IMG/VR virus record: IMGVR_UViG_3300006919_000193
Coordinates: 1-34,638 of that record
Strand: one strand, 5' to 3'
Length of the DNA: 34,638 bases
Origin: a virus
In this document: one piece after another, positions 14,008-18,192 of the stretch
Layout: each line of letters begins with the position of its first letter
How positions within the stretch are numbered: the stretch's first letter is position 1
Notes under the pieces: model-generated
What the model saw: the letters and a program-made list of their open reading frames with translations, nothing else
What the model was told of the DNA's origin: nothing
Database searches by the model: none
Translations under genes and position numbers: made by a program

Positions 14008-15898
14008 TCAAGTAATGTCCATGAGATACTCTTTCAAATAGTCCAAATTCTATTAATCTATTGATCCATGCGTAGGTAGTTTTAGGATTTCGACCTAATT
14101 CTCCCTCTATGTAAGCCTTTATTTGTTCAATATTTAATATTGCAGGGTATTTTTTAGAATTAATTGTTTGTGCAGTTGCATAAGATTTTAGGTGTTTAAA
14201 TGCTTGAAACTCTGGTTTCTTCTTGATGTCTACATAGTGAACACTTTCATTTTCTATTGCATTTAGTTTTTCAAAGTGTAGTGTGTCTTCATCAAACTCC
14301 ATGCAAAAAGGAACATTCAAAATGTCTGCTTGCTGCGATCTACATTTTGTAAGTTTAAATATTTTTAAGTCATGCGCTAGATTAGATTGTGCGACTTGTA
14401 TAGAATTAGAAACAAAGTCAGTAAAGGATTTACCCCCCCTGATCATATCTTTATTTAAAGTTTTGGTTTCTTGTGTCATTTTGGTATGATGATTAATCAA
14501 CATTATGCCGATGTCATATTTATTTTTTATTAAAGCTATTTTACTAAGCAGCTTTGCTAGTTCTTGATTGTTCTGCACATCTTTTTCAGTGGATGTGTAT
14601 AAGTTGTCTACGATCAGAACATCATAGTCATTGCTTATTAATGATCCATCAATCATTGTCCAATTATCAACAAACACAGAATTTTCCCCAATTCCTTTAA
14701 TATCTAAAAGCCCAGGGTTTTTTATTTTTGCATCCATATTATTGTACATAACTCTGAGCCTACTTCTTAATTCTTGATTTGATAACTCAAATTGTACTAA
14801 CAACACTTTGTAAGGTTTATTAACTTTAAAGCCTAAAAACTCTGTACCAGTTGCACAAGCCAGTGCAAACTGTAAAGCTAAAAAAGATTTACCAACCCCA
14901 TCGGATCCTGCAATAGTTGTTACACCACCTCTGGTCATAACCTTATCTACTATAATTTCTTGTTCATCTTCTTCATTATCTAAAAAGTCGCCTATAGTAA
15001 AAATATCTAGTTTTTCACGAAGATCATATTTTTTGCAGTTTGCTATAGCCTCTTTAATCTGTTCCTCAGTAGCATCGGTTGCATCAAAGCCCTCGGGTAC
15101 ATCCCCCCATTCTGCTATATAAACATTTGGTATTTTTTGTAAAGCTAATTCATAAGCAAGTTGCTCCGCCCCAGTTATTCCAGGCTCATCGTTATCATAT
15201 AAAATTAATACTTTTTCAAAGTCTTTAAGTTCTTCTACAGTAGGATGTGATTTAGCGCCAGTAGTTGAGGTAATAGTCCCCCCACGAATGGACTCTATAC
15301 TTAAGAAATCTTTCTCTCCCTCAGTTATAACAAGTAAGGGAGTTTGTTTTTTTATATTTGCTGCCGGAAACCACCTAGACTTTGTATTTCCATACTGTTT
15401 ACCTTTATGCCATTTAATAAAGTCAATATCTCCATCTACATCACGATCATAAAAAACCCAGTTACTGGTATGCCAATCCCAACAAACATTCTTTAAAGCA
15501 ACTTCTTTTTTCCAATGATGTGGCTTTTCAAGTGTGTCCCAGTTCTCTTCAGTGTATTTTATGTACCCTAATACTAATCCTACTTGTTCATTAAATTTTT
15601 TATCTTTTTTGAATTTTTTTTGTTGCGAGAATGCCCCTACAATCGATTTTCTTGTTTCTTTTGGTATGATTGCATTGCTATCTGTAGAAAATCCATTAGA
15701 AGATACTTTTTCGGACAATTCTTTAAAATTACCCCTCTGATTGCAAGAAAAGCATAAATAATAGCCATTTTGATCATGAATTGATAAACTGGGACTTTTA
15801 TCATCATGAAAAGGACAACTAACTATATAATTGTCGCCACTTTTTTTGACTTTATCAAAATTTTCTCTAACAAACTTTTCAACTTTGTTCATAATCAT
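13967..15898 (-). CDS. Replicative primase-helicase
   Basis: 643 residues with three domains. A CHC2-like zinc finger has Cys28, His31, Cys49 and Cys52. A TOPRIM domain at about 187-265 has ITEGEKD (191-197, Glu193) and YDNDEPG (234-240, Asp235 and Asp237). A RecA-like helicase/ATPase has Walker A GSDGVGKS (331-338) and Walker B VLIVDNL (427-433). The C-terminal 70 residues look like a winged helix (AWINRLIEFGLFERVSHG). It would prime and unwind phage DNA. It is the last gene of the replication operon and overlaps the plus-strand gene at its 3' end. No DNA polymerase gene is nearby, so the host enzyme is likely used. Confidence 0.93.
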   Translation of the reverse strand: MIMNKVEKFVRENFDKVKKSGDNYIVSCPFHDDKSPSLSIHDQNGYYLCFSCNQRGNFKELSEKVSSNGFSTDSNAIIPKETRKSIVGAFSQQKKFKKDKKFNEQVGLVLGYIKYTEENWDTLEKPHHWKKEVALKNVCWDWHTSNWVFYDRDVDGDIDFIKWHKGKQYGNTKSRWFPAANIKKQTPLLVITEGEKDFLSIESIRGGTITSTTGAKSHPTVEELKDFEKVLILYDNDEPGITGAEQLAYELALQKIPNVYIAEWGDVPEGFDATDATEEQIKEAIANCKKYDLREKLDIFTIGDFLDNEEDEQEIIVDKVMTRGGVTTIAGSDGVGKSFLALQFALACATGTEFLGFKVNKPYKVLLVQFELSNQELRSRLRVMYNNMDAKIKNPGLLDIKGIGENSVFVDNWTMIDGSLISNDYDVLIVDNLYTSTEKDVQNNQELAKLLSKIALIKNKYDIGIMLINHHTKMTQETKTLNKDMIRGGKSFTDFVSNSIQVAQSNLAHDLKIFKLTKCRSQQADILNVPFCMEFDEDTLHFEKLNAIENESVHYVDIKKKPEFQAFKHLKSYATAQTINSKKYPAILNIEQIKAYIEGELGRNPKTTYAWINRLIEFGLFERVSHGHYLIKNYKYLDTDDTH

Positions 15899-16925
15899 AA
15901 ATCTCTCTTAGTCTTCTTCCAATAATATATGGGATTTGAGGTAATACTCCATTTCCAAGTCCTTTGATTCTATCCTTATATCTGTCCAACACAAGGGAAT
16001 CCCCATTAGCCACTCTACCCACATCGGGTTCATCTTCAAGGATTTGAAATTTTGGGACTTTGAAAGCTCTAGGTAATTCACTACATCTTGAAGCCTCGCC
16101 CCATAAGTCGAGTTTGGCTTGTTTTTCTTCCTCAAAATAAACCCCCCCGACTGATTCCTCTCCACTCTTTTTGGTTGAGGCGACTGTATGTTTGAAGCTA
16201 CTGGAGTCGGGTACTTGGTAATCTTTTCCTCCTGATCCTTGAATATCTTTCTTGGTAAAGTTCGATACTTGTAATGAGCTGTCCCCTCTGTGTCTTTCCA
16301 GTCCCTGGACAGAGGTGTCGGAAACATATTTAGGTAATTCGGAAGTTTTACCCCCCTCCAGTTGCCTTTCTTCATTTCTTTTTTCATTAGATTTCTCTCC
16401 AGGTCTAGTGGAAAACTCGCATCCAGTGCGCATGGAGTAGGTATTCTTCGTTGGGTAGGCGATAATCCAGAGCCTCTTGCGTAAGTGTCTTGCACCAACA
16501 CTGGCTGCTGATATAATTTGCCATTCTGCATCATACCCGATTTCGGCAAGATCGCTAAGGACTCTTGTTCCTCCCCTTTTTGTGAGCAACTGGACATTTT
16601 CAATAAGTGCGAATCTTGGTCGTAATTCGCTAATAATTCTGTGCATTTCAAACCAAAGACCTGACCTTTTTCCATCTAAACCCTCTCCTCTACCAGCAAC
16701 ACTAATATCTTGACAAGGAAATCCCCCCGATATTATATCTACTGGTTCTAAGTTATGTTTTCCAATAGTTTCTACATTGTCATATTGTGTAGCACCTGGA
16801 AATCGTTTTTTTAATAAATCTCTACACCACTCATCAATCTCGCAGTTCCATACAGTTTCAATGCCTGCCATTTCAAATCCTAGGTCAATCCCCCCAATAC
16901 CGCTAAACAATGAGCCATGTTTCAT
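15879..16925 (-). CDS. DNA (cytosine-5) methyltransferase
   Basis: 348 residues. It transfers a methyl group from SAM to carbon 5 of cytosine in a target site not readable from sequence. Motif I FSGIGG is at 7-12, motif IV GGFPCQ at 67-72 with catalytic Cys71, motif VI ENV at 109-111, motif VIII-like QIISAASVGARHLRKR at 136-151, and motifs IX-X GLGNGVLPQI from 322. The target-recognition part (about 160-300) is low in complexity, rich in Ser, Lys and Glu, and unlike typical compact domains; the same DNA carries a second reading frame (see 15908-16675). The start overlaps the previous stop (ATGA). It probably protects phage DNA from host restriction. Confidence 0.92.
   Translation of the reverse strand: MKHGSLFSGIGGIDLGFEMAGIETVWNCEIDEWCRDLLKKRFPGATQYDNVETIGKHNLEPVDIISGGFPCQDISVAGRGEGLDGKRSGLWFEMHRIISELRPRFALIENVQLLTKRGGTRVLSDLAEIGYDAEWQIISAASVGARHLRKRLWIIAYPTKNTYSMRTGCEFSTRPGEKSNEKRNEERQLEGGKTSELPKYVSDTSVQGLERHRGDSSLQVSNFTKKDIQGSGGKDYQVPDSSSFKHTVASTKKSGEESVGGVYFEEEKQAKLDLWGEASRCSELPRAFKVPKFQILEDEPDVGRVANGDSLVLDRYKDRIKGLGNGVLPQIPYIIGRRLREIYDYEQS
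15908..16675 (-). CDS. Nested overlapping ORF: PTP-repeat / WLMGxP family protein
   Basis: 255 codons fully inside the methyltransferase gene, same strand, different frame. A GAGGAGAGGG site (16690-16681) is five bases before its ATG at 16675. The protein has recognisable motifs: GLKCTELL near 8, PKSGMMQNGK at 44-53, three PTP units (IPTPCALD 78, FPTPLSRDWKD 118, YPTPVAS 155), RLQDVV at 194 and MNPMWVEWLMGIPLCWTD at 215-232. As far as I recall, the same set occurs in a protein family beside phage cytosine methyltransferases, usually annotated methyltransferase-associated or hypothetical. A random alternate frame would not be expected to give all of these, so dual coding is likely. Function is unknown. 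Confidence 0.7.
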   Translation of the reverse strand: MEKGQVFGLKCTELLANYDQDSHLLKMSSCSQKGEEQESLAILPKSGMMQNGKLYQQPVLVQDTYARGSGLSPTQRRIPTPCALDASFPLDLERNLMKKEMKKGNWRGVKLPNYLNMFPTPLSRDWKDTEGTAHYKYRTLPRKIFKDQEEKITKYPTPVASNIQSPQPKRVERNQSGGFILRKKNKPNSTYGARLQDVVNYLELSKSQNFKSLKMNPMWVEWLMGIPLCWTDIRIESKDLEMEYYLKSHILLEED

Positions 16926-17128: not shown

Positions 17129-17765
17129 TGCTCTTTAAATCTGCTAAGTTTAAAATACATTCAAATACTTTCCAACCCCAGTCTAACTTGCTAAGTGGAA
17201 TAGCATGATCTTCAAATCCTTGACCAGTTTTGTCTAACCTAAGCAATCTACCCCCCTCAATCTTATTGCCAGTCTGCTTTTCATACATATATTTATAAGC
17301 AGCTAACTGAACAATAAACTCGGAGTAAAGCCCTTTAGAAGATTTTAAATCTCCAATATATAGCTTACCATCAATCTCTAAAATTAAATCACAAGTCCCC
17401 CCCACTCTTAGGTCATCATCAATTAATTTAATTTCAGACTCTATATACTTAGGTTTAAACTGTGCATCCCATTCCTTAAAAGCATCAAAACAAAGTTCTG
17501 CTGCTTTAATTTGATTTTTTGAATAGTCATCTAAATCAGTCTTTTCTTCTTTAATAAAATTTTCACATAGTAAGTGTGCTAGTGTTCCAATTTCTGCTGC
17601 CTCATTCATTACCTTAGTAGGATCATTGCCTTGCATTCCTTGAGATCTAGCCCAGTTTACTAATATTTGTTTATTCCAACCTAGATGTGCATTAATTAAA
17701 GTAGTAACACTTTTAACTCGTTTTCCATCTGATGTTTTATATGCGGTGTGTGCTTTAGTCTTCAT
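17109..17765 (-). CDS. PD-(D/E)XK exonuclease (RecB/Cas4-like)
   Basis: 218 residues. Nuclease signature: GTLAHLL with His64, VGGTCDLIL with Asp126, YIGDLKSS with Asp139 and Lys141, and a QLAAYKYMY helix with Gln153 and Tyr157. The layout is that of phage RecB-like nucleases. It would resect DNA ends for recombination or replication, perhaps with the SSB-like and resolvase-like proteins of the same operon. The Gly-Gly at 122-123 is encoded by a G7 run (C7 at 17397-17403). It overlaps the previous gene by 11 bases. Confidence 0.88.
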   Translation of the reverse strand: MKTKAHTAYKTSDGKRVKSVTTLINAHLGWNKQILVNWARSQGMQGNDPTKVMNEAAEIGTLAHLLCENFIKEEKTDLDDYSKNQIKAAELCFDAFKEWDAQFKPKYIESEIKLIDDDLRVGGTCDLILEIDGKLYIGDLKSSKGLYSEFIVQLAAYKYMYEKQTGNKIEGGRLLRLDKTGQGFEDHAIPLSKLDWGWKVFECILNLADLKSNEEPNH

Positions 17766-18192
17766 AAAACTCCTTTATCATTATTTTTGAAATCTTTCTT
17801 GCTTTTTTTATAAATAAATCGTCTGTTGTTTCTACTAACTCTTTAATAATATTTGCTACACTCTTCTTGTTATAATCACTTGCAACTTTAAGTGTATGAT
17901 ATGTTTCTGGATACAATCTTATTCTATGTTTAGCAGATAATGCTTTGTTTTTATGTCTTTGATTAAAATTAGGTTTTAGCTTTTTAATTAATCTATATTC
18001 TAATTGCTTTGCTTTATCGACACTTAAGTATCTGACTTTGACATAACTCCAAGATAGCTCATGTTTTAACAATCTATCAAAGATATTGTTTGAATATCCT
18101 ATGTATTTTAAGTCTTTTCTACCAGTGTACATAGCGTAAACACCTGAAGACCTTTTTATCTGATCTATATCTCTTTCAGTTCGCCAGTTCAT
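17755..18192 (-). CDS. GIY-YIG nuclease fused to ribbon-helix-helix domain
   Basis: 145 residues. The N-terminal GIY-YIG fold shows GVY at 17-19, YIG at 30-32, Arg40, Glu65 (KQLEYRLI) and KPNFN at 73-77. The C-terminal part (about 88-122, RIRLYPETYHTLKVASDYNK then VANIIKELVE) looks like a ribbon-helix-helix DNA-binding domain. That would make a small sequence-specific nickase or nuclease, or a homing-type enzyme that has joined the operon. It overlaps the neighbours on both sides by a few bases (ATGA before it), so it is an integrated operon member, not a late insertion. Confidence 0.8.
   Translation of the reverse strand: MNWRTERDIDQIKRSSGVYAMYTGRKDLKYIGYSNNIFDRLLKHELSWSYVKVRYLSVDKAKQLEYRLIKKLKPNFNQRHKNKALSAKHRIRLYPETYHTLKVASDYNKKSVANIIKELVETTDDLFIKKARKISKIMIKEFYED

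Follow-up and report, generated by a model that had tools for sequence, protein, structure and literature searches.

Two overlapping reading frames of a phage gene probably encode two subunits of one C5-cytosine methyltransferase

Single-chain C5-cytosine methyltransferases have two natural exceptions, M.AquI and M.EcoHK31I (PMC3404938). In M.EcoHK31I the large chain carries motifs I-VIII and X and has been assigned the recognition domain, leaving only motif IX on the small chain, and in M.AquI a natural split after motif VIII places both IX and X on the small chain (PMC3404938). The locus described here lies in a window of 34,638 nucleotides, the whole stretch of DNA that was analyzed (virus record IMGVR_UViG_3300006919_000193), and the surrounding terminase, tape-measure, tail fibre and primase/helicase genes mark the record as that of a tailed phage. 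It shares with the two-polypeptide M.EcoHK31I (YGGCCR) the division of motifs into I-VIII plus X on one product and IX on the other. Lee et al. reportedly found in 1995 that the M.EcoHK31I genes are nested in alternate frames, and the fully nested inner gene of the window matches this arrangement.

The two differ in the location of target recognition, which is assigned to the large chain in M.EcoHK31I, whereas in the window the nested chain appears to provide it through tandem PTP modules. Since the recognition region of the window behaves as part of the nested chain, we regard the pair, compared by description, as a variant of the M.EcoHK31I type rather than a member of it. In contrast to M.AquI, whose second chain carries IX and X, the window pair keeps X on the large chain and its second gene is fully nested. 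The catalytic domain and motif X of M.HhaI and other single-chain C5 enzymes align with the outer chain, but the M.HhaI type has its recognition domain and motif IX in frame on one chain, unlike the window pair. The parts of the locus are as follows (ratios are the substitution ratios defined further below):

15879..16925, minus strand: outer ORF, predicted C5-cytosine methyltransferase large subunit, 348 aa, with motifs I-VIII and X and without IX
15908..16675, minus strand: inner ORF, predicted small-domain subunit, 255 aa, ATG start, +1 frame of the outer ORF
16452..16925, minus strand: outer catalytic part, motifs I-VIII, from the M.HhaI alignment; outer-frame ratio about 0.2-0.3
16701-16727, minus strand: GGFPCQDIS, within the outer catalytic part
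15980..16451, minus strand: outer variable region, read as an open linker with little or no amino-acid constraint; outer ratio 1.08 (0.94-1.26)
15936..15974, minus strand: motif X in the outer frame, DRIKGLGNGVLPQ, from the A2/M.HhaI alignment; outer ratio 0.20-0.24 after IX
16681..16691, minus strand: Shine-Dalgarno-like AGAGGAGAGGG 5' of the inner ATG, from the sequence
16445..16675, minus strand: inner N-terminal part across motifs IV-VIII, open, with amino-acid constraint little above baseline
16325..16444, minus strand: PTP module 1 (IPTPCALD...), from PTP repeats across the family
16214..16324, minus strand: PTP module 2 (FPTPLSRDWKD...); in relative L003 an unrelated module takes its place
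16061..16213, minus strand: PTP module 3 (YPTPVASNIQ...GGFILRKKNKPNSTYGARLQDVV), common to relatives
15980..16039, minus strand: motif IX in the inner frame (LKMNPMWVEWLMGIPLCWTD), from the M.HhaI alignment via a relative; inner ratio 0.19

A preliminary description had proposed that a 255-codon frame is nested out of frame inside a methyltransferase gene, and both ORFs are present at these coordinates. The sequence contains every landmark it listed: the start context AGAGGAGAGGGTTTAG-ATG, PKSGMM, three PTP units, RLQDVV and MNPMWVEWLMGIPLCWTD. PKSGMM was rejected as a motif of the inner protein in its own right: reading the outer LAEIGYDAEW block in +1 yields it, so that its conservation taken alone is uninformative on the inner protein. 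The outer motifs that had been named hold for I-VIII and X and fail for IX, which lies instead at the inner C-terminus, and the view of the outer protein as a complete enzyme with motif IX is thus unsupported.

The outer ORF matches PF00145 (E 3.9e-45), with catalytic motifs I-VIII including PC and ENV, and also phrog_363. It departs from the usual PF00145 form, in which motifs I-X lie on one chain, in that IX sits in the inner frame. The inner ORF matches phrog_1008 (E 1e-15), labelled 'DNA methyltransferase'; no family in Pfam or NCBIfam is matched by it, and phrog_1008 is without counterpart in either collection. Elsewhere in the window (17755-18192, minus strand), a 145-aa ORF has a start that looks GIY-YIG-like by eye (GVYAMYTGRKDLKYIGYSNNI) and no PHROG match.

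An initial query with the inner protein retrieved 55 viral loci; the inner match, down to about 30% identity, lay almost always in the +1 frame of the methyltransferase. Profile searches of viral and genome collections, plus a few annotated phage records, expanded the set to 219 loci (L numbers below) from phages and bacteria of many phyla with GC contents of 0.36-0.71, nearly all of them retrieved by the inner-protein query. Loci were classed with motif profiles (I-VIII, IX, X) and counted as nested when I-VIII and X shared an ORF that was overlapped over at least 300 nt by a +1 ORF containing IX. This class, with IX inside and I-VIII and X outside, comprised 191 of the 219 loci, a fraction that, with inner-query sampling, measures the consistency of nesting and not the share among all C5 methyltransferases. 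Its hosts come from about a dozen phyla, and the class includes other phages with the same nesting, which the preliminary description had proposed to look for. A plasmid search for further nested relatives, aimed also at an EcoHK31I-like one, returned 8 plasmids, none of them enterobacterial.

Under synonymous shuffling of the outer codons, the longest +1 open run was significant at p<=0.01 in 171 of 190 loci and at p<=0.05 in 186, and the same shuffling applied to the +2 frame as a control gave p<=0.01 in only 1 of the 190. In the window sequence (identical to L001) the +1 run is 255 codons, compared to a shuffled mean of 75. Because shuffled outer genes rarely reach the observed run, the long +1 frame is no by-product of the outer protein, and chance is excluded as its source.

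Constraint was estimated frame by frame from 79 independent locus pairs with 68-98% nucleotide identity, each locus being used once. Possible and observed changes were classed by their effect in both frames, and each ratio holds the effect in the other frame fixed. These dN/dS-like ratios are approximate, having no multiple-hit correction, and the unconstrained +1 baseline, upstream of and after the inner gene, is about 0.55-0.81. Over the 79 pairs, the outer ratio was 0.17 before the overlap, and from the inner start to VIII the ratios were 0.25 (outer) and 0.61 (inner). Between VIII and IX they were 1.08 (0.94-1.26) for the outer frame and 0.22 (0.18-0.26) for the inner one, and at motif IX 0.96 and 0.19. 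After IX the outer ratio was 0.23 and then 0.20, with the inner ratio at about 0.6. The +2 control stood at 1.1-1.35 in well-sampled regions. In finer bins, the switch takes no more than about 15 codons from VIII, and the switch back comes right after IX. The same pattern was seen in the 9 pairs of window relatives (recognition region, outer 0.82 and inner 0.24). The inner part across motifs IV-VIII is near baseline (0.53-0.69).

Dual coding is strongly supported by these computations. The outer region between VIII and IX evolves as if its amino acids were unconstrained, and the constraint sits in the inner frame, bearing out the earlier impression that a loose outer target-recognition section was constrained by something else. 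Purifying selection, which had been proposed for testing in each frame, acts on the outer frame up to VIII and at X, and on the inner frame between VIII and IX and in IX itself. These values also bear on the possibility that the inner chain gives motif IX only and that the recognition domain lies in the outer variable region, as is the literature assignment for M.EcoHK31I (PMC3404938). Carried over to the window, that assignment meets an outer variable region at 1.08 over an inner frame at 0.22, together with PTP modules that are conserved, repeated and swapped, and we consider it extremely unlikely here.

Stop codons tell of both frames. Over the 60 outer codons that lead up to the end of VIII, no +1 stops were observed, compared to 464 expected from shuffles; further upstream there was no depletion (223 observed, 181 expected). 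The outer frame, for its part, contained no stops between VIII and IX, compared to 698 expected given the inner protein. This figure is conditional, since an outer ORF without breaks is part of the definition of the nested class; a broken one kept only a few of the 219 loci out of the class. From this depletion both frames are predicted to be translated. Closure of the inner frame in homologues had been set beforehand as the observation that would count against dual coding; the frame is kept open, and dual coding stands.

Programmed frameshifting, from 0 to +1 after VIII and back for X after IX to give a single chain, would fit the sharp hand-over of constraint at VIII and after IX, which is as for a spliced coding sequence. 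However, it needs neither an open +1 frame before VIII nor an open outer frame between VIII and IX, precisely where stops number 0 against 464 and, conditionally, 0 against 698. It would also require two shifts, and there is no common slippery site, only 36 of 190 loci having an X3Y3Z-type heptamer near VIII. We reject frameshifting as very improbable and favor a nested chain with its own start. Relatives of the window type keep AAAGGAG(C/A)AGGATTAG-ATG at the inner start, and a second group of loci has a GAGGAGGATATTAGAA-ATG start. Only 67-114 of the 190 loci have a Shine-Dalgarno-supported ATG in the expected region, and initiation therefore varies among them. In 67 of the 190, an ATG that has a 5-nt Shine-Dalgarno match is open to VIII, when 2 would be expected, or 45 if stops are ignored, which makes the start signal beyond openness modest. 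It had been suggested that any phage with the conserved loop of the enzyme might carry the inner start; this did not hold, as the G-x-G-L-x-G loop has ATG in 29 of 73 loci and ACG in 23.

The outer profile A2 aligns to M.HhaI residues 12-176 (I-VIII) and weakly to 288-318 (X), with nothing between, where the small domain lies. In relative L171, whose outer frame holds both IX and X, the alignment pairs NPDWVEWLMGFP...LGNAVVP with LHPRECARVMGYP...FGNSVV of M.HhaI; the IX part has a weak score of its own (second domain, 3 bits) and rests on order and pattern. By this alignment, the inner end NPMWVEWLMGIP is identified as motif IX. An NPxWVEWLMGFP-like IX lies beside X in the outer frame of L051-L053, L055, L171, L198 and L233, and the PTP modules stay in the +1 frame in L051, L052, L055, L171 and L198, where they were read out. 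IX and X are both in the inner frame in L060, L074, L081, L100, L161 and L199, and likewise in the actinophages L227 and L229-L231. Among these, L060, L074, L227, L229 and L230 are M.AquI-like, their second chain combining the recognition modules with IX and X. The pairing of IX and X on that chain, which the window does not have, is found by the M.AquI criterion in L060, L074, L161 and L199. The partition of IX and X between frames changed at least 7 times on a tree of the catalytic part. In L054 (1685-2622) and L206 (2165-2999), the catalytic motifs and IX share one frame and X lies in another, through either rearrangement or a sequencing indel.

The inner protein could instead be a separate accessory, acting as an anti-restriction factor, an inhibitor or a regulator, whose gene was overprinted on that of a complete methyltransferase. 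In favor of this, the inner ORF starts and stops independently, and no database family assigns the protein a tested function. Yet the outer frame is without motif IX or a constrained recognition region, which leaves that methyltransferase incomplete, and the inner end is motif IX itself, found in the outer frame in relatives. A separate accessory is, in our judgment, very unlikely. Of the functions offered in the preliminary description, target recognition as a methyltransferase partner gives the best fit, and the anti-restriction role falls away.

Target recognition would reside in the PTP modules. PTP occurs 434 times in the family, compared to 18 in shuffles; the modules begin [W/F/Y]PTP-T-A-x-D, number 1-6 per protein and have a median spacing of 36.5 aa. 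L001 and L003 show mostly 87-100% nucleotide identity outside module 2 and 41-61%, with gaps, inside it. Such a replacement is what a specificity cassette would be expected to show, and if the modules recognize DNA, it would be a natural swap of one. In L033 (2174-3352), the inner ORF has 393 codons and extends well beyond motif IX, and beyond the outer gene as well, the extension containing one more PTP-like unit and an unrelated-looking C-terminal part. A PDB profile search with the inner alignment gave chance-level matches only and no solved structure. AlphaFold2 models of the inner chain were of low confidence (pLDDT 48 with 24 sequences and 61 with 95), and Foldseek found no match to the better one.

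Judged from sequence comparison, the gene very probably makes two subunits of one C5 enzyme, a catalytic chain and a small-domain chain from the nested frame. For this proposal, the computations show dual coding, constraint handed over from frame to frame, motif IX at the inner end, both frames kept open and, in relatives, IX and X moving from one frame to the other. The outer chain would carry the catalytic large domain, motifs I-VIII and then X; it must be read through the interval from VIII to IX to reach X, and the stretch there would be a near-unconstrained linker. The nested +1 chain would start at its own Shine-Dalgarno/ATG within the outer gene and supply the small domain, that is, tandem PTP target-recognition modules followed by motif IX. 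The two chains would assemble into an active enzyme in which the PTP modules contact DNA. Methylation would most likely mark the phage or host genome, at a sequence set by the PTP modules.

Proteins of the same kind, in the same +1 overlap, already exist in annotated phages: Rani RANI_51 ('g50 Internal gene'), Arcticfreeze gp57, ArV1 067b and Samy gp50. The Paenibacillus phage Arcticfreeze has two nested methyltransferases annotated, ArV1 has 067a/b, and the inner gene of Samy is a 'DNA methyltransferase domain protein'. Inner-gene records carry only hypothetical or second-methyltransferase annotations, and no statement of a recognition-subunit role was found in them. The literature search found no description of nested recognition subunits in phage C5 methyltransferases, which is weak evidence of novelty, subscription journals being largely uncovered. 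In Acidovorax phage Alfacinha3 (L058, 1051-2217), the annotation 'cytosine-specific methyltransferase' sits on a CDS in the inner frame and not on the catalytic outer frame. For phage phiBT1 (L231, AJ550940.2, from 1227), the record describes gp9.1 as 'DNA methylase may be inactive'. An unannotated +1 frame overlaps gp9.1, reaches beyond it, stays open for 310 codons and matches motif IX weakly; the phiBT1 enzyme may be intact but split.

On balance, it seems probable that a class of C5 methyltransferases across many phyla uses the +1 frame of the catalytic gene itself to encode the specificity subunit, made of tandem swappable PTP modules and motif IX, with the outer variable region serving only as a linker; this would allow cassette-like exchange and maybe several targets per enzyme. 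The locus is an unusually clean case of overlapping genes, in that constraint is split between the frames by segment and segments change frame in relatives. What had been two cited oddities, M.EcoHK31I and M.AquI, would become a widespread gene architecture. Many genes annotated 'DNA cytosine methyltransferase' would then be half an enzyme, the specificity half being hidden in the +1 frame or called hypothetical, and prediction of specificity from the outer variable region would be reading a linker.
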